A DNA stretch of 64,000 bases from positions 310,001 through 374,000 of the forward strand of contig NZ_CP136920.1 of NCBI RefSeq assembly GCF_033100135.1, given 5' to 3'. The translations under genes and the position numbers were made by a program. The notes beneath the pieces were generated by a model, which was not told the origin of the DNA, ran no database searches, and saw only the letters and a list, made by a program, of their open reading frames with translations. Within the stretch, counting starts at the first letter, position 1. Every line of letters begins with the position of its first letter. Of this stretch, positions 6,472 through 17,904 are shown piece by piece. This stretch comes from Rubellicoccus peritrichatus. GTDB taxonomy: Bacteria > Verrucomicrobiota > Verrucomicrobiia > Opitutales > Cerasicoccaceae.

Positions 6472-7122
6472 TTAACAACTATCTCTTCTTAGTTTGCAAA
6501 CAAGGTCGGCACCAAGGACATTCTGAAAAGCAGCACGCAGCTCAGGATGCTTGGGCAGGTATTTCCTCAAGGATTCGAATGACCAGGAAACATAACGAGC
6601 AGGCGTCAATGCAACGACATCTGCCGATGCCTTTTTGCCCGTGAGATAACCCATCTCACCAACGAAGTGACCAGGAGACAATTGAGCCAACTCCTTGTCA
6701 TTGCGGCGAACAGACAACTCACCTTCGTATATCACAATAACCTGGTCGATCTCTTTACCATTGGAAGCAACCATGCTTTCGGGCTGGGTTTCCTTCCATT
6801 CCCCCAACTCCAATAGTCTTTTGAAATCCCGTTGAGACAGTTGATCAAAGACCAAACGATAGAGTTTCAATTCATCGCCCACCAGATGCACTGGTCGGCG
6901 TTCCATAATCAAGACAACAGACAGGACAAGATTGATGCTGATAAAGACAAAGTTCCAAATAATAACGTCCCATAAAGGAGTCGCCTGAAAGTAATAGTAA
7001 GGAATAAGAGAAGACCCCGCAATAATGGCAAAGATTCGCAACCATAAGATATCACGAACCAGGTATGAGATCAGGTAGAGAACATTCGCCATATTGGCAA
7101 GGTATGGGAGTAGTAGACTCAT
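6472..7122 (-). CDS. Popeye-like membrane protein with cyclic nucleotide-binding domain
   Basis: 216 residues. Three hydrophobic segments fill residues 1-70 (LANMANVLYLISYLV, LRIFAIIAGSSLI, IIWNFVFISINLVLSVVLI). A cyclic-nucleotide-binding fold follows, ending in FVGEMGYLTGKKASADV at the phosphate-binding cassette. The order of three membrane helices plus a cNMP fold resembles eukaryotic Popeye proteins and their bacterial relatives. The canonical cassette Arg (GEL..PRTA) is not obvious: the site reads GKKASA, so cAMP or cGMP binding is not assured. Its start overlaps the stop of the peroxiredoxin-like gene by four bases, so the two are translationally coupled. A role as a membrane sensor is inference. 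Confidence 0.7.
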   Translation of the reverse strand: MSLLLPYLANMANVLYLISYLVRDILWLRIFAIIAGSSLIPYYYFQATPLWDVIIWNFVFISINLVLSVVLIMERRPVHLVGDELKLYRLVFDQLSQRDFKRLLELGEWKETQPESMVASNGKEIDQVIVIYEGELSVRRNDKELAQLSPGHFVGEMGYLTGKKASADVVALTPARYVSWSFESLRKYLPKHPELRAAFQNVLGADLVCKLRRDSC

Positions 7123-7748: not shown

Positions 7749-8849
7749 CTATTGCTCCGGCCAATGAATCTCTTTTGCCAATTCAACCAAGAGTTTCATC
7801 TGCGGATTATCCTCGGCCAGCTCTCGGGCTTTCGCATATGCTTCAGGTCCATCCGGAATCTCGACAAGGTTAACCACTTCGACCCTGTCCTTGGGTAAGC
7901 TGTTCTTTGCATTCTCCCATCTAAGATTTCCCAGCGCGTAAGAATCGATGAGTCGGTGCTTTTTGCCCTTAAAAGCAAAACCAGTTCCACGACCAAAAGC
8001 AGAAATACAACGCGTATAACTCGTAACGGTTTCATGGACGTCTGCCACACCACCCGCACTGGAGCCATTCCAGGCAAAAAGGCAGTCGCGAAACTCCGCT
8101 TCTGATTTCCCATGGGCACTAGCTCCTTCATCGCCACAGAGAATGGCAGAGCAGTTTTCCAGCACAATGCCCTCGCAATGACCATGCAGCCCAAATCCGT
8201 CATTACTTGCACCACGGACATTGAGATTTCTAATCCGAACGTATTTGGCATTATCCAGCATAACTCCCTTTTCTGCACCTGGAAGGTAAGTTCCAGTAAA
8301 TGGTGGCTCCATTCCATCCGGAAAGCGTATTAAAAGCGCACCATCTTCGCCCTTCTTCACGAGAAAATCCTCTGCGCCATAGCCTGCAAAAGGAGTGCTT
8401 TTAGACATCACAATCGGAACACCACGATAAAAAGCAATAGCCCACTGACTTTTCATAGCTTTTCTGTCCACATTGACAGACCAAAAATCGCCTTCCTTCT
8501 TCCAGGGTCCATCGGATATATCACTGCCAAGATCAATGATTGCACCGTTGCCTTCAATCGTGATTGGAGCCTCAGCAGTGCCTTTGATTTTGAGCCTCAT
8601 CCGCTCCCGATAAGGCTTCTCCGTTTTCATGATGGAAAGCGTATCGCCAGGTCTCAACAATGATAGAGCCTTGGAAAATGTTTTGACCGGACCATCAGGG
8701 GCTCTCGCTTTCCCTGAAACACCCAACCAACTATTATCCCCGGTTTCATGATTCACATAGACCACTTTCCCCAAACACATGAGCGGCAAAACCAGAAACA
8801 TCGCTGAAAGAAAGAGTGATTGTCTGCGAGAAACAGTGAATTTAATCAT
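7749..8849 (-). CDS. Exported right-handed beta-helix protein
   Basis: About 366 residues from ATG at 8849; TTG and GTG lie just upstream. The signal peptide is SLFLSAMFLVLPLMCLG. The mature start VVYVNHETGDNSWLG with PVKTFSKALSLLRPGDTLSI is the opening of DUF1565/parallel beta-helix proteins. Repeating turns follow (RIRNLNVRGASNDGFGL, GIVLENCSAILCG, EFRDCLFAWNGSS, SYTRCISAF). The fold occurs in polysaccharide lyases and in surface proteins; no lyase catalytic triad is evident. The C-terminus (PEAYAKARELAEDNPQ) leaves the helix. It is the first gene of the unit reading down to 6472. Confidence 0.75.
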   Translation of the reverse strand: MIKFTVSRRQSLFLSAMFLVLPLMCLGKVVYVNHETGDNSWLGVSGKARAPDGPVKTFSKALSLLRPGDTLSIMKTEKPYRERMRLKIKGTAEAPITIEGNGAIIDLGSDISDGPWKKEGDFWSVNVDRKAMKSQWAIAFYRGVPIVMSKSTPFAGYGAEDFLVKKGEDGALLIRFPDGMEPPFTGTYLPGAEKGVMLDNAKYVRIRNLNVRGASNDGFGLHGHCEGIVLENCSAILCGDEGASAHGKSEAEFRDCLFAWNGSSAGGVADVHETVTSYTRCISAFGRGTGFAFKGKKHRLIDSYALGNLRWENAKNSLPKDRVEVVNLVEIPDGPEAYAKARELAEDNPQMKLLVELAKEIHWPEQ

Positions 8850-8912
8850 AACCACCAATTGACTAAGTCAACCAAGGAAGGCAGTCAACTACAGACCATA
8901 AACAACCCCCCG

Positions 8913-8975: not shown

Positions 8976-9087
8976 ATTCAGAGCGCCATCACAATCGCGT
9001 AACAAACCGCAGGCACAAATCAAGAGGCCTTCAAAACTTCTCGAAAAGTCTGGTGAAGCGATAAGGAATCCTTTTTGATGCGTTTAA

Positions 9088-9113
9088 CGTGACAACGTCA
9101 CGCTTATTATAAT
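9088..9113 (+). promoter_or_regulatory. Promoter with palindromic operator for the 9131-17144 operon
   Basis: A perfect -10 box TATAAT lies at 9108-9113, and the ATG follows at 9131, which leaves a very short leader without a Shine-Dalgarno site. The perfect inverted repeat CGTGAC-aac-GTCACG (9088-9102) sits where the spacer and -35 box would be, and no good -35 is present (TAACGT at 9085-9090). That layout suits a repressor or activator site bound by a dimer. It is the only strong promoter I see for the six-gene block. Confidence 0.6.
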
Positions 9114-9130
9114 CAAATAGCCATACAATT

Positions 9131-10447
9131 ATGAGTAACGATATCCTTAGCCAACTCCGCGCAGATACTGATCAATCCCTCAATCGCCTCGAGGCAGAAA
9201 CCGGCCTACAGTCGATGGAGACAAAAATCGCCGCCCTTGAGCAGCAGATGGAGGAAGCCGCCCAGATAAAAGACGAAGACGAGCGACAGCTTCGGATGAA
9301 GGTCCTTCAAGCCGATTTCGAAGAAATGCGTTCCGAATTACGTAAGGAAGAGGAGGACCTCTCCCAGGCAGTTTTCGGCCTCAACGCAATCATGAACGAA
9401 ATGGGGTCTGAATACGAGGACCTCATGCAGCTGAGTGATGACGAAAAAGCAGTCATCCAAAAAGCCAAAGACGCCGTAGCCGCTGCTGAAGCTGAAATCG
9501 CAGAAGTCAAAGCCACACCAGGCTGGAAATTCGCCATCACCTTTAGCTCACGTGAAACCAAACTGGCCGAAGCTGAAAAAGCGCTAGAAATCGCCAGGAA
9601 AGGTGTGGAGACTGCCGATATACAGGCCAAAAAGATGGCACGCGACCGCCTGATGAAGGCATCCTTTGAAGAGAGTCTCCAGCAGTTCATGTATAAGGTC
9701 GATAAAACGATCAAGATCATGGAGGACCGCAGGACCGAGATCCAGAAGCAGCTGGAACAGGTCGCCCATCGAAAAGCCGAGTCTTTCCGCATCAAAGAAG
9801 AAGCGGCCAAAATTCTTGAAGACCTAGACCAGAAGTTAAACGAGGAAGAAGCCAAATTAAAGAATCGCGAGAACGAGCTAGATACTTTGGTCAATGGTTC
9901 GGCCGAATACGTCAGCGTCGAACAAGCGATTTCAAGCCTAAGGGCAGAAGTCGAAGGCTTGCGCGGCCGTCGCAATCAGGCCCTGGTGTTGTTCCAGTCA
10001 AAAGAGCGTTTCGCTGCCGAACTCGATGTCCACGAAAAGAGTCAGATGAAGCTGCGTGACAATCAGGACGCCTGGATCACACTGCTACGCTCTGATACGG
10101 AAGAGCGTTTGACCACCTTCCGCAGTCGCCTCGAAGCCATGAAGGCAATGAGCGATCAGGAAGCCGCAGAAAAGCTCGATACTTTGGGAACTTCCCTGGA
10201 CAAGAGCAACGTCGACTTCATGGCGCAGGTTGGAAGTGCATCTGACCGTCGCCGGATGAAGATGGTCGAAAGCCAACCGGAACGTATCAAACGGATAGAA
10301 GAAGCCCGTGCCGCGCAGGCAGAAGCACAGGCACAAATCCGCGAACGCGAGAAGTCAGCTCTGGAAGAGTTCCGCAAACGTTACGGACTCGACCCACTTG
10401 ATTCGTCTTTCTTCAGCTATTCCGACAAGGAAACGGAAAGCAACTAA
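9131..10447 (+). CDS. Long coiled-coil protein, first gene of an unassigned AAA+ module
   Basis: 438 residues, soluble, no signal peptide or membrane segment. Residues about 15-120 and 180-410 are dense heptad-type helix rich in Glu, Lys, Ala and Gln (EEEDLSQAV, AEAEKALEIARK, KILEDLDQKLNEEEAKLKNRE). A short non-coiled break at about 133-146 contains ATPGWKFAITFSS, and a distinct tail ends in FFSYSDKETESN. It resembles PspA/Snf7-type or TelA-type coiled coils only in composition; I see no motif that ties it to either. Composition alone cannot show function. It sits upstream of an AAA+ ATPase and two membrane proteins on the same strand, so a substrate or scaffold role is a reasonable guess. 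Confidence 0.7.
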   Translation: MSNDILSQLRADTDQSLNRLEAETGLQSMETKIAALEQQMEEAAQIKDEDERQLRMKVLQADFEEMRSELRKEEEDLSQAVFGLNAIMNEMGSEYEDLMQLSDDEKAVIQKAKDAVAAAEAEIAEVKATPGWKFAITFSSRETKLAEAEKALEIARKGVETADIQAKKMARDRLMKASFEESLQQFMYKVDKTIKIMEDRRTEIQKQLEQVAHRKAESFRIKEEAAKILEDLDQKLNEEEAKLKNRENELDTLVNGSAEYVSVEQAISSLRAEVEGLRGRRNQALVLFQSKERFAAELDVHEKSQMKLRDNQDAWITLLRSDTEERLTTFRSRLEAMKAMSDQEAAEKLDTLGTSLDKSNVDFMAQVGSASDRRRMKMVESQPERIKRIEEARAAQAEAQAQIREREKSALEEFRKRYGLDPLDSSFFSYSDKETESN

Positions 10448-10516
10448 CGTCAGCCTCCGGACGTTTGTCTTACACAGTGATTGTAATACACAGGCAACCG
10501 GTTCAGGCTTAACTTT

Positions 10517-10600
10517 AACAGGAAGATCGGGGAGAACGGAATGACAGATCCGAAGCTTAACCCATGCGATACTTTCCGCTCCTCCCGATCTTTCTGTTTT
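10517..10600 (+). promoter_or_regulatory. Long imperfect stem-loop between the first two genes of the module
   Basis: The arm at 10517-10541 (AACAGGAAGATCGGGGAG, then CGGAA) pairs with 10574-10598 (TTCCG, then CTCCTCCCGATCTTTCTGTT), with one mismatch and small bulges. Only four T residues follow. It could be a weak terminator, an attenuator or an RNA-processing element that lowers expression of downstream genes relative to the coiled-coil gene. It lies in a 206-base gap in an otherwise tightly packed operon. Confidence 0.5.
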
Positions 10601-10653
10601 ATACACAAAATATTTGGCGCAGCTAAAGAAGAAGAATACATTCCAATAGTCTA

Positions 10654-11772
10654 ATGACTTTGACTGAACAGCAAGCCGCCTCAGGCGACTATGTCGAGCT
10701 TCCTCACAAGGACGCCTACGCAACTTATTTCAACCAGCTTGTTCGCGTCTTCACCGTACTTGAAGCCTGGGTGGAGGAGGAACTCGGCACACTGAGTCCC
10801 GAGGTGACTGCCCTGCACATGAACCTCCAGCGCATTCACCAAAGCACTGAGCTTTTACGCCTGAAGTATCTTTATGAGCCGACTCACTCACTGCGATTAG
10901 ACCTCAATGAATCTGGTTTTCCACACTTCAACGAGTTGCAACGGATGGTGGGAGATTTCATCAATGCTGAAGAATATTTGCGCGAGCTTCCTCCAGAACT
11001 TCTGGCGATTGAGCAAACTCTCGACGAGCTCTTTGATACCAACGAACAGCCACAGCGTGGCTTGCAATTACTAGGACGCCGTCATTATTTAGAGCGACTA
11101 TTGAAAGCCGACTTCATGGGACCATTCCGTTTTGGTGGAGTCCGGACTTTGGAAACGGGAAAAAAACACCGTTCATGCGTTGCCGCCTGGAGCTGCTACA
11201 GCAGCCGGGACAATCTCCCCTATCTGCATCTGATGCATTTTGACCAGGACATCTGGAAACCCGAACTGGAACAGGACTCGGTTGATTACAATCGATTAAA
11301 AACATTCGTCGAACAACAAAGTGGCCATATCCCACCACTTGCCGTTCTTGCTACCGCCATCGATGAAGAATTTGAGTGGATCCATCCCAAGATCATCCGA
11401 CGCGTTTCACTTGGGCCGATCATTCTCCCGGTTTTCAGCTTTGACGATGGGCCACTTGCCACCTTGTTGCGAACCGCCGGCAAGCCGAGTGATTTCATTG
11501 TCCAGCTTGAGTCCGAGGTCATTGTTTCAAGCAAACAGGTCGTTCAGGAGAAAGGAGGACTCTTTCGCGAGGAAAGAGTCCGTGAGATATTTTCCATCGA
11601 TGAAAACAGCCTCGAATGCTTTGACCGCAAGCTTTCGGACATTCATCGCTTTCTCTTCATGCCGCACCGCATCTGGCAGGCCGTTGAAGAAAAGCCCCAC
11701 TTCCTTCCATCAAAATTCAAACGAAGCCAACGACTGGCTTTTGATGAGTTAAATCAGGTTCATATTTTGTAA
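10654..11772 (+). CDS. Unrecognised soluble protein of the AAA+ module
   Basis: 372 residues with no signal peptide or membrane segment. I do not recognise the family. The first half is mainly helical (VFTVLEAWVEEELGTLSPEV, LQRIHQSTELLRLKYLY). The second half is more beta-rich and holds a basic patch GKKHRSCVAAWSCYSS, then LPYLHLMHFDQD and RRVSLGPIILPVFSFD. No nucleotide-binding or catalytic motif is visible. The stop is two bases from the start of the AAA+ gene, so expression is coupled to it. An adaptor or subunit of the ATPase complex is the natural inference, untested. Confidence 0.7.
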   Translation: MTLTEQQAASGDYVELPHKDAYATYFNQLVRVFTVLEAWVEEELGTLSPEVTALHMNLQRIHQSTELLRLKYLYEPTHSLRLDLNESGFPHFNELQRMVGDFINAEEYLRELPPELLAIEQTLDELFDTNEQPQRGLQLLGRRHYLERLLKADFMGPFRFGGVRTLETGKKHRSCVAAWSCYSSRDNLPYLHLMHFDQDIWKPELEQDSVDYNRLKTFVEQQSGHIPPLAVLATAIDEEFEWIHPKIIRRVSLGPIILPVFSFDDGPLATLLRTAGKPSDFIVQLESEVIVSSKQVVQEKGGLFREERVREIFSIDENSLECFDRKLSDIHRFLFMPHRIWQAVEEKPHFLPSKFKRSQRLAFDELNQVHIL

Positions 11773-11774
11773 TT

Positions 11775-13733
11775 ATGCCAAGTAAAAGCGACTCTACCTT
11801 TCCCATCACGCAAAAGGATTTACGGGAGCATCTGGATCATGCCAATCAGATGTTACTCAAGATCCAGGATAAACCTGCGACCAAGCCGGAACAACCATCC
11901 GCATCAAAAGGGAACTGGCGCCCATCCACCGACTACTCAAGCTCAGGGCTTGTCACAGTTGAACTTCACAAACTGGCCAAAGTGGTCAGCCAGGATGCCC
12001 TGATTCTAACGCCGGAAGCCAATGCCGTCATCGCTGCATTTCGTGATGGTGCCTGTCTTGGCATGCACCTGGGGCGTGCCTATGGCGAAGCGGCAGGACT
12101 CGAACGTCTGATCCAACTCAATCGCTCTGGACGGATGTCTGCTGCCCAGCAGGCCGAGTTTTATGAAAAGCATCACACCGCAGCTGCAGTCACCCTTTTC
12201 GGCTTTGCAGCCTATATTAACTGGAAGCTTTCAAGTCTGTCCGATGAAAAAATTGCCAGCCGTCAGATCACACTTGCTGAGCAACCGTCAGTTGATCTGG
12301 CCAATCCTTTAAAGGCACTCGAACGAGCGATCTTTGACTTTGGTCTTCTTTCCAAAGACCCTCAGATTCGCGACAGTCTCGACTGGTATCGTTATGCTCA
12401 AGTTTTTGCCGACGCCCTGATCAGTGAATTACAAACACGGGTAGGCTCGCTCAATCACACCGCATTTTTCACTGATAACAGTTATCGCCTGGAGAACACC
12501 ACCCTTCTGATCAGTGGCTTTGAAAACATAGCCAATCCATCGGCAACCTCGGTCGAATTCAATCGAGTCGAGTTCAAAGACATCGTAGGTAACCGGGAAG
12601 CAAAACATGTGGCGATGCGAACGGCGCAGCGTTTGCTTTGTTATGACCTCACAGCAAAAAAGAACCCGTTCCGTGACATAGGAGGCTTACCGCTTGTGCG
12701 CATGGGCTATGGCAAGCCAGGCACGGGTAAGAGTCTACAGATCGCAGCCATCGCAACCCTGCTTCACGATTATTGTGACTGGCTGGAAATCCCGTTCCTC
12801 TTCTGGCCCTTACCCGATAATATCGTTTCAACTTTCCAGGGAGGCAGTGCCGAACGCGGAGTCGAATACATGCGTCGCCTTCAGGATGATGACAAAATTC
12901 TCTACGCAGCAATCGATGATGCAGAAAACAATTTTGAGGAGCGAACCCGACAAGGCGTATCCTCTGGTGTCAGGGAAATCATTGGCGTCTTCCTGCGTTA
13001 TACCGAAGGCGCTTATGCAATCACGCGTGGCAATGCGGTGATTGATTTCTACACCAATCTCCCTGAGCAGATCGACAAAGCCGTGCTCTCCCGCGTGCAA
13101 TCACGGTTTGCCATCGATGGAGCCGCCAGCCGCGAAGATTTTCTCGACCAGGATCACCTGTGGTGGCGTAAGATCAAAGAGGTTGACCCCAAAGTCATCG
13201 CGCAAAAAGACCCGGATGATTACGAATACCTTTCGGCTCAGGCCGAGCTCGGAAACCTTTCCGAACTCGAATCCAACAGTGAACCACAAATCCGAGATGA
13301 CCGCTTGCAGGAAGTCACCAATCGATTGCTCAACGATCTCGGAACCGGTCATCACGACTTCTTCGCCCGCTTCTTTACTGAAGTGCTAAAAGTCTACCCG
13401 ATCTTTTCATCACGTGATGTTCGCAACATCCAGCAAGCGGTAAATAATCGCCTGACTGACTTTGATCTACCGGAAAGCTGGCTGGAAACTCCGGAGACTT
13501 TCTTCCGCCAGTCTTATGATCGTAAGCTGGAGATGCTGAAAGAACTGATGCGTGGTAACATGAAGAGTCTAACCTTCCCGGATATCCGCTGGCGGGAAAC
13601 CGTGAAGTACTGCAATAACCTTTCACGTATTTTAAATCAGGATCGTGAGCGTCGTATCGCCGACATCATGAACGAGATGGATTGTCATGGTGAAGCCAAA
13701 CGCCGCTTCGTTTCAACCGAGCAGGGTTCGTAG
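11775..13733 (+). CDS. AAA+ ATPase with long N-terminal domain
   Basis: 652 residues, soluble. About 280 N-terminal residues of helical sequence of unknown family precede an AAA+ core that opens with VEFKDIVGNREAK. Walker A is GKPGTGKS (313-320, Lys319). Walker B is KILYAAIDDAEN (374-385, Asp381-Asp382, with Glu384 shifted from the usual DE). Sensor 1 is probably Asn428 in VIDFYTN, and Arg440 or Arg444 in LSRVQSRF is the probable arginine finger. AAA+ proteins of this class hydrolyse ATP as ring oligomers to remodel proteins or complexes. The C-terminal 200 residues are helical. No protease or helicase domain is fused. Neighbours are packed within five bases either side. Family beyond AAA+ is unknown to me. 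Confidence 0.85.
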   Translation: MPSKSDSTFPITQKDLREHLDHANQMLLKIQDKPATKPEQPSASKGNWRPSTDYSSSGLVTVELHKLAKVVSQDALILTPEANAVIAAFRDGACLGMHLGRAYGEAAGLERLIQLNRSGRMSAAQQAEFYEKHHTAAAVTLFGFAAYINWKLSSLSDEKIASRQITLAEQPSVDLANPLKALERAIFDFGLLSKDPQIRDSLDWYRYAQVFADALISELQTRVGSLNHTAFFTDNSYRLENTTLLISGFENIANPSATSVEFNRVEFKDIVGNREAKHVAMRTAQRLLCYDLTAKKNPFRDIGGLPLVRMGYGKPGTGKSLQIAAIATLLHDYCDWLEIPFLFWPLPDNIVSTFQGGSAERGVEYMRRLQDDDKILYAAIDDAENNFEERTRQGVSSGVREIIGVFLRYTEGAYAITRGNAVIDFYTNLPEQIDKAVLSRVQSRFAIDGAASREDFLDQDHLWWRKIKEVDPKVIAQKDPDDYEYLSAQAELGNLSELESNSEPQIRDDRLQEVTNRLLNDLGTGHHDFFARFFTEVLKVYPIFSSRDVRNIQQAVNNRLTDFDLPESWLETPETFFRQSYDRKLEMLKELMRGNMKSLTFPDIRWRETVKYCNNLSRILNQDRERRIADIMNEMDCHGEAKRRFVSTEQGS

Positions 13734-13738
13734 TCAGT

Positions 13739-15001
13739 ATGGAAATTCTACAGCAAAAAGGTTTCTTTGGGCACAGTCTCGTGCCAGTCACGACTCCCTT
13801 GCTGGTTGAGCGTTACAATGAATGCCTGCGTGCACTCGACAAGGAAGAGACATTGCTGGAACGTTTCTCCATCGATGGCGCAGGATGGAGCCCGCAGATT
13901 GCCAAAGAGAAAAACGACCCCAACTATCTCTGCCACGGCGAAGCCAACCTTTACGCTGTTTTGCTGACACCGAACCAAATGGGAAAGCCGGTCTACGTGC
14001 CGATGCATTCCTTCGATGCCGCAATTCTACAAACGGTTCATAACAACAACTCGCGGGCGATTAACAATCTGACCAGTCGCACAGGTATTATCCTGGATAT
14101 AGATCAAGGTATTGATGCATACGAATGTCCACTCGACTTACTGATGCTGGATACCTTCACCATTCGCGCATTCACACCGACTGCGATTATGCAGGGCGCA
14201 CGCGATCAAAAAGAACTCGTCGCCCGCTTCCGCAAAGAACCTGGCGCATGGCAGGATGCAACGCTGATTGATTCGTTGATTCAATCAGCCAAAGACCTTG
14301 GAGACTTGCGTCACAGTGCACTTCAAATCGCACCAACTCCTTTCAATGATGTTGGTAACTTCTACACGCGGGCAATGGGCGGTCTATATGTGCTTCGTGA
14401 TGCTCCCGATTCCCAGTGCAAAATCGTCATCATGGCGGGAGCTGACCACGAAGTTGACAGCCTCCCCAAACGAGACGTCTATTCCATACCGAAAGATTGG
14501 GAACCATTGATTGAGCGTTTGACCGCTCTGGATTTTCTCCAACCTTACGGCGCTGATCCGTCAGAAGCGACCGTCGCACGTCTCGAACAAACCCTCCACA
14601 TGATTATTGCCCAAGAGGCTTATGCCAATGGGCTTGAGGAAGATTTCGACGGGTTGAATCCTGCCAAACTCGCAAGCTGGAAACAGAGACTGCGTGGTGA
14701 ACTGAAACCCGCATACGGCGAGCTGAGTCAACTGGCCAAAGCAATACGCCGAGGCGAGAAGCATAATGACGATCTGGAATTTGATGCCTGGACCCATGTC
14801 CTCCAGCCGAACCCTCAGCTACCGGAAAGCACACGAAGTATCCTCTGGCACTTGCTGAGCAGAATCCAGCCTCACAATATCGAAATGACATACCGCCATC
14901 ATAAGTCTCTTTTTTACGAACGCTATCAGTCGTGGAGCAAACCACAAAGAATCTGGGCGTTGAACTTCCTCACCAACCAAGGGCTTCCCCATCATGAGTA
15001 A
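13739..15001 (+). CDS. Unrecognised soluble protein of the AAA+ module
   Basis: 420 residues without signal peptide or membrane segment; I cannot name the family with certainty. The N-terminal part has LCHGEANLYAVLL, PVYVPMHSFDAAIL and NNLTSRTGIILDIDQG, a mixed alpha/beta pattern. GLYVLRDAPDSQCKIVIMAGADHEVDS at about 215-240 adds two strands, and the C-terminal 170 residues are helical with conserved-looking His and Trp (WTHVLQPNPQL, WHLLSRIQPHNIEMTYRHH). No catalytic motif is evident. It starts five bases after the ATPase stop and its own end overlaps the next gene by eight bases, which implies strict co-expression. Confidence 0.7.
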   Translation: MEILQQKGFFGHSLVPVTTPLLVERYNECLRALDKEETLLERFSIDGAGWSPQIAKEKNDPNYLCHGEANLYAVLLTPNQMGKPVYVPMHSFDAAILQTVHNNNSRAINNLTSRTGIILDIDQGIDAYECPLDLLMLDTFTIRAFTPTAIMQGARDQKELVARFRKEPGAWQDATLIDSLIQSAKDLGDLRHSALQIAPTPFNDVGNFYTRAMGGLYVLRDAPDSQCKIVIMAGADHEVDSLPKRDVYSIPKDWEPLIERLTALDFLQPYGADPSEATVARLEQTLHMIIAQEAYANGLEEDFDGLNPAKLASWKQRLRGELKPAYGELSQLAKAIRRGEKHNDDLEFDAWTHVLQPNPQLPESTRSILWHLLSRIQPHNIEMTYRHHKSLFYERYQSWSKPQRIWALNFLTNQGLPHHE

Positions 15002-15545
15002 TCACACATCCTACATCGTTTTCTGGATGATCATGTTCGTCATCCTGGGAGCATTTTGGTACATCATCGATCGTCGCTACGGCGTGAAATGGTATCGTCT
15101 CTGGTATCGTCTGACTCACAAGGATCCACTCCCGGACAATATCGCTGTGGGCTTTGTCTACAATCGTCGCTCACGTCACAAGGCTGTGATGGCAGCCGTC
15201 CTCTCAACGCTTCAAACTTTTGTTGCACTCTATTCAGTTCAGTCGCTCAACCTGCTCGTAGAGCTCGTCCTGTGGCTCGTGGAAATTCCGATGACGATGA
15301 TCGGTTTTATGATCGGCCCGTTTGCTTTCAAACTCTGGGGACGCAAGGACGAGATGCTTGACGCAATTGATGATCTGGAACAAAAGCATTTGGGCGGTCG
15401 TGATATTGAGGATGACTCCACCAGGGACAAAGCGAAGGAAGTCAAAGTCAAACCAGCCGCAAAGAAAGAACCGGAACCAGCACCTGCTCCCAAAGAGGAA
15501 AAGCCGGACCCTAAGAAACTGTTTGATCGTTACACCAAGCGCTGA
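14994..15545 (+). CDS. Small membrane protein with charged cytoplasmic tail
   Basis: 183 residues. A first membrane helix (about 6-25, IVFWMIMFVILGAFWYII) and two further hydrophobic stretches (about 63-112, including LLVELVLWLVEIPMTMIGFMIGPFAF) are followed by about 70 residues rich in Lys, Glu, Pro and Ala (KKEPEPAPAPKEEKP). Loop residues RRYGVKWYRLWYRL are basic. No known family is evident. The start overlaps the preceding gene by eight bases, and the next gene begins four bases after the stop. It probably anchors the soluble parts of the module to the inner membrane. Confidence 0.72.
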   Translation: MSNHTSYIVFWMIMFVILGAFWYIIDRRYGVKWYRLWYRLTHKDPLPDNIAVGFVYNRRSRHKAVMAAVLSTLQTFVALYSVQSLNLLVELVLWLVEIPMTMIGFMIGPFAFKLWGRKDEMLDAIDDLEQKHLGGRDIEDDSTRDKAKEVKVKPAAKKEPEPAPAPKEEKPDPKKLFDRYTKR

Positions 15546-15548
15546 TTC

Positions 15549-17144
15549 ATGAAGCAGGTTCTGCCAACGATTCCCGAAACCAGTTTTGCCAGTAAGTGTT
15601 ACTGGCTGGGCAAACACACCTGGAATGGGCTTAAGCGATTTGTCCGCGAGCACATCGTTCTATTCACCAGCCTAGTGATTATCGCCATCGTCCTGCTATT
15701 TATTTCACGGCCTTATCTACAGCACTTGGCCATCACGATTCGCTTGTATTCCGCACCGTTATTTTTTGGCGCACTAGGAGTCATTCTGGCAAACTGGTTA
15801 TGGCTGAAATTAAATCGACTTGTCGGCTTACTGATCGGAGTGATCAGCATCGTATTCACGGTTACTTTTTTCTCTCCCTTTGAAGGACCACGTCAGTACC
15901 TTGCTTTATGGTGGCAATACACCTTTGACGATCATGTCACCATCGACACCTTACCCCTGACCGAGCATGAACGCATTCATCCGCGTAGTGCGGTCCATAC
16001 CCTGGCGCAGGAAGGCATCACGGAAGTGCAGGAAGTTTCTGATCCAAGTTTCGTCCGTGATGGGGACAGCTATAACTGGACCATGGCGATTGAACCTGCT
16101 TTCTTGGTTCCAAGGCTGACGGGCACCGTCAACGAAGTCATGAGTGTGCCGGCCGATCGCCCTGCTCTGAATTTCTCCGGAGAGAATCGCGACAGTGTTG
16201 TCTTCTCAACTGGCGAAGGCATGATTGGCCCGCGCAACAGTCAATTCGCAACCATCAAACGCTTCGGCCTCTGGCGTTACTTCAACTACGAACCAGCCAA
16301 TGTTCGTTACATACGTGACGACGCCGGGGCATGGGCCCAGGTTATATCGCTGATTCGCTGGAAAGGCTGGTTTCTTCCTCGTCCTACTTTCGGTGGTGTC
16401 ATGATTATCCGACAGAATGAAAACGCTGCGGATGGTCTTAAGACATTCCTGACCGGCGCCGGTGAATGGATCTCCCCCAAAGAGATCGCTGACGTCCCCT
16501 ACCTGCGTGGGCAAAACCTGATCCCCAAACAAGTCTCAACTTTTGTCGCTGAAAGCTTTCGTTTCACCCGTGGTTTCTTTGCCCCGATGCCTGGCTATCA
16601 TCTTGGCGACATTCGTGTACCCAATCTACCAGGCGACCAGAATGATCAACCATTTACCTGCTTTTTCGATTTCGGTGACCATGCCAAGTTGTATCATTAC
16701 TTCGCCCTCGAACCCTTTCAGGCCGACAAGCAGGGACTCAACACCAGCCTCTTTGTTCCAGCCGACGGAGTTGGTCCCACACTGGCTTATCGGCACTATG
16801 ATCGCGAAGAAGCATTGACCGGAGTCTCCGCAGTCGTCGCCAAAGTGATGGAAAGCAGGAAAAACTATGATTGGTCCCAGAACAGTGCGGCCGAACAACG
16901 TCCGGTCATTCGTGACATCAACGGAAAACGTCGCTTCTTCTGGCTAACCACAGTAGTCACCCATAAGGAGGGAGACGGCACCTCTGGCAGTCAATTCATC
17001 GCAGGAGCGGAGCCGGATATCACCCTGACCGATGCCAATTACAATACCGTCGTGTGGGTTAATGCACGGAAACCCGATGGCTGGACGGATGAACTCAAGG
17101 AAGAGCTATCCACTGTATGGGATGGCGAATCAAGCCAACCGTAA
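15549..17144 (+). CDS. Membrane protein with large extracytoplasmic domain, last gene of the AAA+ module
   Basis: 531 residues. Three membrane helices occupy about 36-56 (VLFTSLVIIAIVLLFI), 64-86 (YSAPLFFGALGVILANWLWL) and 90-110 (RLVGLLIGVISIVFTVTFF). A basic N-terminus (GLKRFVREH) suggests N-inside, so the remaining 420 residues would lie in the periplasm. That part is beta-rich with repeated aromatic motifs (FGLWRYFNYEP, CFFDFGDHAKLYHYF, RRFFWLTTVVTHKEG) and no family I recognise. It has no lipobox or protease motif. As the only exported mass in the operon it is the likely sensor or load-bearing part. Confidence 0.72.
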   Translation: MKQVLPTIPETSFASKCYWLGKHTWNGLKRFVREHIVLFTSLVIIAIVLLFISRPYLQHLAITIRLYSAPLFFGALGVILANWLWLKLNRLVGLLIGVISIVFTVTFFSPFEGPRQYLALWWQYTFDDHVTIDTLPLTEHERIHPRSAVHTLAQEGITEVQEVSDPSFVRDGDSYNWTMAIEPAFLVPRLTGTVNEVMSVPADRPALNFSGENRDSVVFSTGEGMIGPRNSQFATIKRFGLWRYFNYEPANVRYIRDDAGAWAQVISLIRWKGWFLPRPTFGGVMIIRQNENAADGLKTFLTGAGEWISPKEIADVPYLRGQNLIPKQVSTFVAESFRFTRGFFAPMPGYHLGDIRVPNLPGDQNDQPFTCFFDFGDHAKLYHYFALEPFQADKQGLNTSLFVPADGVGPTLAYRHYDREEALTGVSAVVAKVMESRKNYDWSQNSAAEQRPVIRDINGKRRFFWLTTVVTHKEGDGTSGSQFIAGAEPDITLTDANYNTVVWVNARKPDGWTDELKEELSTVWDGESSQP

Positions 17145-17178: not shown

Positions 17179-17904
17179 CTACCGGTTGGATTTCTGAACG
17201 AGGATAGTATTCTTGCGATATTCCCACTCATAGTCATATCGCCTACAGACTCGATCCAGAATTTTTGACAACTCCATATCGCCACTATTGTAACTCACAA
17301 GATCGGTCTTACCCTCGGACCCAAGAAATATAATGTTTATTCCCTTACCCTCGGGATCAGAAGCAACAGACCTACTGCTCAACTCACTGACGAATGTCTT
17401 CATGCTCACTTTATCGGCGCTCAATCCAGTAACAATCAGATCTGACAAAGGACCCTTATGCTCCTTTCGCTTTTCTACTTTTAATTTCAGTTGCAGCAGC
17501 TCCGCTTCCAGTTCTCTTTTCTCTTTGGCATCTCTCTTAAAACTTCCGTGCAGACTGGAAATATCACTATAGATCACGACCATATCATGAGAATAGACCC
17601 AGTCTGCGCCCGCTGCCTCCGTGCAGTAACCCAGTATCCGATTCAAACTTAGATTCCGCAAAGTAATAGAAAGCCCTCGGTCTTTCACGCCTTCCTCCGC
17701 AGAAACCGTAATCCCCCTCGCCTCAACCAACTCAATCAAGTTATTCAGACTTCCATCGATGATCCTTAAGGATGGAATGACTTCTCCACCTTTATCAACA
17801 GGAATCTGATATTCAGAAAGCTGCTGCTCAAGCGATTCAATACTACCGTGAGCATGCGAAATAAGGCAGGCGGTCAGAATTAGAATGGGAATAAAGTGTT
17901 TCAT
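17179..17904 (-). CDS. Exported protein with STN-like domains and coiled coil
   Basis: 241 residues. The signal peptide is MKHFIPILILTACLISHAHG. Residues about 45-110 (SLRIIDGSLNNLIELVEARGITVSAEEG, then LSLNRILGYCTEAAGADWVY) match the secretin/TonB short N-terminal (STN) pattern, in which a small alpha/beta unit ends in a strand like MVVIYS. A short charged helix (KEKRELEAELLQLKLKVEKRK) links to a second unit of the same type (MKTFVSELSSRS through WEYRKNTILVQ). STN domains normally precede secretin or TonB-receptor barrels, but none is fused here. It may be a free-standing periplasmic partner. It reads toward the AAA+ operon, with 34 bases between the two stops. Confidence 0.6.
   Translation of the reverse strand: MKHFIPILILTACLISHAHGSIESLEQQLSEYQIPVDKGGEVIPSLRIIDGSLNNLIELVEARGITVSAEEGVKDRGLSITLRNLSLNRILGYCTEAAGADWVYSHDMVVIYSDISSLHGSFKRDAKEKRELEAELLQLKLKVEKRKEHKGPLSDLIVTGLSADKVSMKTFVSELSSRSVASDPEGKGINIIFLGSEGKTDLVSYNSGDMELSKILDRVCRRYDYEWEYRKNTILVQKSNR

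Follow-up and report, generated by a model that had tools for sequence, protein, structure and literature searches.

A conserved six-gene module around a classic-clade AAA ATPase in Rubellicoccus peritrichatus and the Flavobacteriaceae

The window analysed here, a 64,000-nucleotide stretch of Rubellicoccus peritrichatus DNA (contig NZ_CP136920.1, positions 310,001 to 374,000), carries six ATG-started genes in its list of open reading frames, g1 to g6, all on the + strand at 9131-17144. They encode a predicted ATPase of the AAA family (ATPases associated with diverse cellular activities; g3), a coiled-coil protein (g1), two soluble proteins (g2 and g4) and two membrane proteins (g5 and g6). Because their order is conserved, because they occur in the same genomes, and because all of them are retained after the operon has been broken up, we conclude that the six almost certainly make up one dedicated system, as the original prediction for this locus, made from the sequence alone, had proposed. 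Neither of the outcomes that it had named as telling against itself came about: the neighbours do not scatter in related genomes, and none of the parts turned out to come from a separate known system. A literature search found no study of the six-gene module.

Conservation and inheritance of the six genes

A search by alignment across GTDB genomes gave at least 547 stretches encoding relatives. The best 80, described here, are nearly all from Flavobacteriaceae or other Bacteroidota (41-44% identity); one is from a Candidatus Lloydbacteria genome (39%). Gene order was scored in 68 flavobacterial loci of at least 15 kb, and in 67 of them all six genes lie in the same order and on the same strand, a recurrence of six families that excludes chance; in the remaining locus the stretch covered shows g1-g4 only. 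Gap sizes differ between loci and unrelated small genes interrupt the module in many (L024, L016, L012 and L088 among them), indicating that the gene order has been kept while the operon has often loosened.

The module behaves as a unit that many marine bacteria either retain or lack. Across 149 Flavobacteriaceae genomes co-occurrence is all-or-none: the same 47 genomes have both g6 and the DUF6638 family, to which g4 belongs, and g1 is present in all of these and in one further small genome (G573). One genome, G513, has g1-g2-g3 at 1.83 Mb, g4-g5 at 2.58 Mb and g6 at 2.68 Mb, and has thus retained six out of six. About one third of the sampled Flavobacteriaceae genomes, in other words, hold a strictly co-inherited six-protein ATPase module, four of whose proteins fall in no family recognised here.

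In the phylum of R. peritrichatus DUF6638 (1 of 388 genomes) and g6 (1 of 289) were found in this genome only, with g3 in none of nine other genomes sampled from the same family; a broader sample of Bacteroidota has DUF6638 in 4 of 296. In a tree of g3 the window sequence groups next to the Flavobacteriaceae (98/86); Lloydbacteria branches outside them and the proteobacterial type is very distant. Long branches leave this placement unsure. Composition bears no signature of recent transfer, the guanine-plus-cytosine (GC) content being 0.507 in the module against 0.483 in the window and the GC at third codon positions resembling that of the neighbours; old lateral transfer and repeated loss both fit. 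Phage records gave no match to g3 and viral contigs no confirmed one, so that these searches show no sign of a phage or viral origin; a dedicated, chromosomally inherited machine is the best explanation.

The module comes in three types. The first, g1-g6, is that of the Flavobacteriaceae and the window. The second, g1-g4 without g5 or g6, belongs to Vibrio and Rhizobiaceae: a tblastn search of plasmid records placed relatives of g3 and g4 in the same ten records (four Vibrio, six Rhizobiaceae), and the loci read, a single one from each of Vibrio, Sinorhizobium, Rhizobium and Shinella, have the order g1-g2-g3-g4, confirmed by profile. The third, g1-g3-g5-g6, occurs in Lloydbacteria, with no g2 or g4 within 20 kb and no DUF6638 in the Lloydbacteria genome searched. 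The sole pair constant across all versions found is g1 and g3, which is the main reason for seeing g1 as partner or substrate of g3. Directly 3' of g4 in Sinorhizobium lies a DUF2333 membrane protein, a family named merely as uncharacterised in PMC5256989, and Shinella has a similar membrane protein; the g6 profile matches nothing in these two loci. A membrane partner may therefore recur across module types.

At a length of 3.7 Mb, and with an anthranilate synthase gene together with cho genes, the record L006 (CP090106.1, labelled Sinorhizobium meliloti pSymB) would appear to be a mislabelled chromosome. Counting along L006 from shmR, which is SMc02726 in S. meliloti (PMC8343143), g1 may correspond to SMc02733; a ChvI-bound fragment sits in SMc02733 (PMC3687685).

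The ATPase and its partner proteins

The g3 protein passes the Pfam cut-off for AAA (PF00004, 32.9 against 21.2 bits) and by its motifs is a classic-clade AAA ATPase, with Walker A GKPGTGKS, a pore loop S-T-F-Q-G-G-S, Walker B I-D-D, sensor-1 N428 and Arg fingers R440 and R444. When residue conservation was counted across 85 g3 sequences, the Walker A P-G-T-G-K (including its Lys), N428, R440 and R444 were unchanged in every one, and the loop S-x-[FY]-Q-G-x-S at the place of pore loop 1 was invariant (its aromatic residue is F in 80 and Y in 5). An aromatic pore-loop residue in AAA proteins fits substrate threading. The earlier description of g3 as an AAA protein with Walker, sensor and finger residues is upheld by the PF00004 match and these invariant residues; its pore loop is of the threading type, and from its classic-AAA motifs g3 would be expected to form a ring. 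Walker B reads I-D-D in 85 of 85, unlike the usual D-E, a canonical pair not strictly required for AAA membership; with D replacing the catalytic E hydrolysis may be slower, and the invariant D-D raises the biochemical question of how such AAA proteins hydrolyse ATP.

In the PDB the g3 profile found the Cdc48, proteasomal Rpt, Pch2 and Vps4 ATPases, with matches confined to the AAA domain. With Vps4, Cdc48/p97 and Rpt, which are classic AAA proteins (PF00004), g3 shares the AAA domain, the aromatic pore loop, two Arg fingers and sensor 1, whereas it differs from them in its Walker B D-D, its single AAA domain and an N-terminal region of about 260 residues that has no Pfam match. Scanned against Pfam at E ≤ 1, g3 yielded PF00004 alone, with no MIT, Vps4 C-terminal or protease domain listed. 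It is also distinct from membrane AAA proteins of the FtsH/Msp1 type, which have an N-terminal transmembrane (TM) segment and, in FtsH, a protease domain as well: Pfam gives an AAA domain alone for g3 of the window, and no hydrophobic segment is predicted in the listed flavobacterial homologues, save one mid-protein segment in L086.

An AlphaFold2 model of g1, built from 19 sequences, is all-helical with a long hairpin, at a predicted template-modelling score (pTM) of 0.46. Its structural matches are numerous and tied at Z ~11-13, taking in HP0958, IpaB, the dynein stalk, SMC, chemoreceptors, PI3K p85 and Vipp1; the Vipp1 match (Z 11.0, 134 residues, 3.0 Å) stands level with those to unrelated coiled coils. 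A PDB profile search with g1 gave weak matches only. Neither g1 nor 15 of its homologues has a PspA_IM30 match in Pfam, and a PF04012 search of the R. peritrichatus genome found three PspA-family loci elsewhere, g1 not among them. Judged by sequence, then, g1 is not PspA, while the model allows a PspA/Vipp1 resemblance by fold. The TelA toxic-anion-resistance family consists of soluble coiled-coil proteins and in this is like g1; g1 and its 15 homologues lack a TelA match in Pfam.

All six window proteins were scanned against Pfam, NCBIfam, PADLOC and PHROGs. The original prediction had left g1, g2, g4, g5 and g6 unplaced, and this still holds for g1, g2, g5 and g6, for which nothing rose above any curated cut-off, but not for g4, which matches Pfam DUF6638 over its full length (PF20343, E 1.4e-46, 159.7 against 27 bits, profile positions 4-395 of 439). 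DUF6638 is a family without assigned function, and a literature search found no paper naming it. Homologues of the four unplaced proteins, scanned singly, gave weak, inconsistent matches only and left the families unchanged; hits to MFS_1, DUF4199, CofC and the like in single g5, g6 or g1 homologues (Pfam, E ~1e-5 to 1e-2) were discarded as hydrophobic or coiled-coil noise, since the window proteins are without them. Searches of the PDB with profiles of g2, g4 and g6 brought up no relative, and g2 and g4 are not duplicates of one another (hhalign probability 0.4%).

Hydropathy agrees with the earlier description of two membrane proteins, one with a charged tail and the other with some 420 residues after its TM segments. 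In g5, 2-3 predicted TM segments are followed by a charged tail, probably on the cytosolic side, that ends in the basic motif KKLFDRYTKR; most flavobacterial homologues have K-S-A-R-[DE]-R-L-K-D-K in the tail, and this conserved basic element is a candidate docking site. In g6, three hydrophobic segments (~35-53, 62-86 and 91-109) precede the large domain, and with positive charges at the N-terminus and in the loop from segment 2 to segment 3 the positive-inside rule would put this domain outside, presumably in the periplasm. In the model of g6 (predicted local distance difference test score, pLDDT, 73.8; pTM 0.77) the large domain is beta-rich, and a structure search with it at this pLDDT gave no Foldseek match at E ≤ 0.001 and a best VIA Z of 5.1 over 62 residues. 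Distant solo relatives of g6 (22-27% identity) lie on haloarchaeal plasmids (L094, L095, L096 and L097), where some are annotated as ABC transporter permease and the annotation names no module genes beside them; another solo relative, in one Patescibacteria genome, likewise has no other module gene nearby.

A possible mechanism weighed against its rivals

We tentatively propose, with somewhat less than even confidence, that a ring of g3 acts on g1 at the inner face of the membrane, remodelling it, and is coupled via g5 and g6 to the periplasm. The ring would pull on or remodel the coiled-coil g1 by means of its aromatic pore loop, with g2 and g4 as putative cytosolic adaptors. Through the charged cytosolic tail of g5 and the three TM segments and large periplasmic domain of g6, the two membrane proteins would tether the g3/g1 pair to the inner membrane and link it to the periplasm, most likely for envelope upkeep. 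The tie to the membrane is favoured by the TM segments of g5 and g6, given that most g3 homologues examined have no predicted TM segment of their own; we infer a physical complex, g1 as substrate of g3, the direction of coupling and the envelope role. If what such a machine remodels at the membrane is a coiled-coil scaffold, the module would amount to an energy-driven system of the envelope whose parts have no recognisable sequence kinship to PspA or to the endosomal sorting complex required for transport III (ESCRT-III). The engine, a classic AAA ATPase, is of a known kind, the conserved six-protein set to which it belongs is undescribed, and the module stands a real chance of being a new machine; the fullest version, in which a Walker B D-D ring would drive a coiled coil that is neither PspA nor ESCRT-III and that connects by way of g5/g6 with a novel periplasmic domain, without counterpart among known AAA systems, is rather doubtful.

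Several points weigh against the proposal of a g3 ring that remodels g1. Shared descent within one clade can explain part of the same-genome pattern, G513 excepted. Every g3 member has D for the catalytic E in Walker B, and hydrolysis, hence threading, may not be assured. The proteobacterial type is without g5 and g6, and the Vibrio and Rhizobium loci examined yielded no membrane partner, which may mean that membrane coupling is non-essential. The model of g1, finally, is poor, and its predicted hairpin fits many coiled coils of unrelated proteins just as well.

The pore loop, the resemblance of the g3 profile to Cdc48 and proteasomal ATPases and the presence of two membrane partners in the operon would also suit a membrane-protein dislocase for quality control, in which g3 with adaptors g2 and g4 extracts or unfolds membrane proteins, g5/g6 are the receptor and g1 serves as scaffold, not as substrate. 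We consider this unlikely: g3 has no protease domain and most of its homologues no predicted TM segment, unlike FtsH, and the constant partner of g3 is g1, not g5/g6. Even less probable is an ATPase that assembles a transport or surface complex from g5 and g6, with g1 as a chaperone-like spacer. Strong conservation of g6 speaks for it, as do the solo relatives in haloarchaea and Patescibacteria, which imply that g6 can function without the ATPase; the proteobacterial type, however, does without g5/g6, and the window proteins have no transporter or secretion family match.

A similarly low probability attaches to an analogue of ESCRT-III/Vps4, in which g1 would form a polymeric, PspA/Vipp1-like scaffold on the membrane, g3 would disassemble it as Vps4 does and the basic tail of g5 would serve as docking motif. 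The long hairpin of the g1 model, the Vipp1 chains among its matches and the reach of the g3 profile to Vps4 fit this picture, and in other bacteria loci of PspA/Snf7 together with AAA ATPases are described in a large survey of phage shock protein (PSP) systems (Ravi et al. 2024, PMC11237479). The likeness to those neighbourhoods is one of analogy, a helical coiled-coil protein beside an AAA ATPase and membrane proteins; the gene sets in the parts of the survey covered here are other than this module, and the PspA family model does not pick up g1. Against the analogue stand also the three PspA-family loci elsewhere in the genome, the tie of Vipp1 with SMC, chemoreceptor and PI3K coiled coils, and the lack of a listed MIT or Vps4 C-terminal domain in g3. 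An anti-phage defence system, suggested by the sporadic occurrence in its own phylum, is very improbable. None of the six proteins gave anything below E 0.35 in PADLOC, the module has no nuclease or toxin and no phage match, and it is common in Flavobacteriaceae with a fixed gene order; the earlier judgement that a defence role lacked support stands.

Locus layout and flanking features

The six co-directional genes lie where first described (Table 1), with identical gaps from g2 to g6: g1 and g2 are 206 nt apart, and the spacings that follow are 2 (g2/g3), 5 (g3/g4), -8 (g4/g5) and 3 nt (g5/g6). Both flanking genes, at 7749-8858 and 17179-17904, run on the - strand, so that the six form an isolated unit.

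Table 1 Coordinates and predicted products of the module genes in the window
Gene	Position	Strand	Length (aa)	Predicted product
g1	9131..10447	+	438	soluble all-helical coiled-coil protein; predicted long helical hairpin 179-252/258-351
g2	10654..11772	+	372	soluble protein without family; in the six-gene and proteobacterial types
g3	11775..13733	+	652	classic-clade AAA ATPase; ~260-residue N-terminal region
g4	13739..15001	+	420	DUF6638 protein
g5	14994..15545	+	183	small membrane protein; 2-3 TM segments, charged tail
g6	15549..17144	+	531	membrane protein; three N-terminal TM segments and ~420-residue beta-rich, highly conserved domain

A sigma-70-like promoter match (10/12) lies at 9084-9113, directly 5' of the g1 ATG, and is weak because the region has no more such matches than shuffled sequence (4 against 6.4); no obvious Shine-Dalgarno motif precedes any of the six ATGs. 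Between g1 and g2 a 16-bp stem (10517-10532/10583-10598) folds better than 200 of 200 shuffles (z -3.5). An intrinsic terminator, with g1 as a separate, highly made protein, was rejected as its explanation, since the arms recur genome-wide as inverted pairs (465303/465473, 1376269/1376375 and 4765039/4765210 among the examples), and the element at 10517-10598 is more likely a dispersed palindromic repeat, similar to repetitive extragenic palindromes (REP) or miniature inverted-repeat transposable elements (MITE). Across the g1-g2 gaps of flavobacterial loci, the window included, the picture is mixed, with a hairpin-plus-T signal below -10 kcal/mol in 32 of 67.

Elsewhere in the window, 6472-7122 on the - strand encodes a bacterial Popeye-domain protein (Pfam POPDC1-3, E 1.9e-17) with an additional match to a cyclic-nucleotide (cNMP)-binding domain; the Popeye-domain family is best known from animals.

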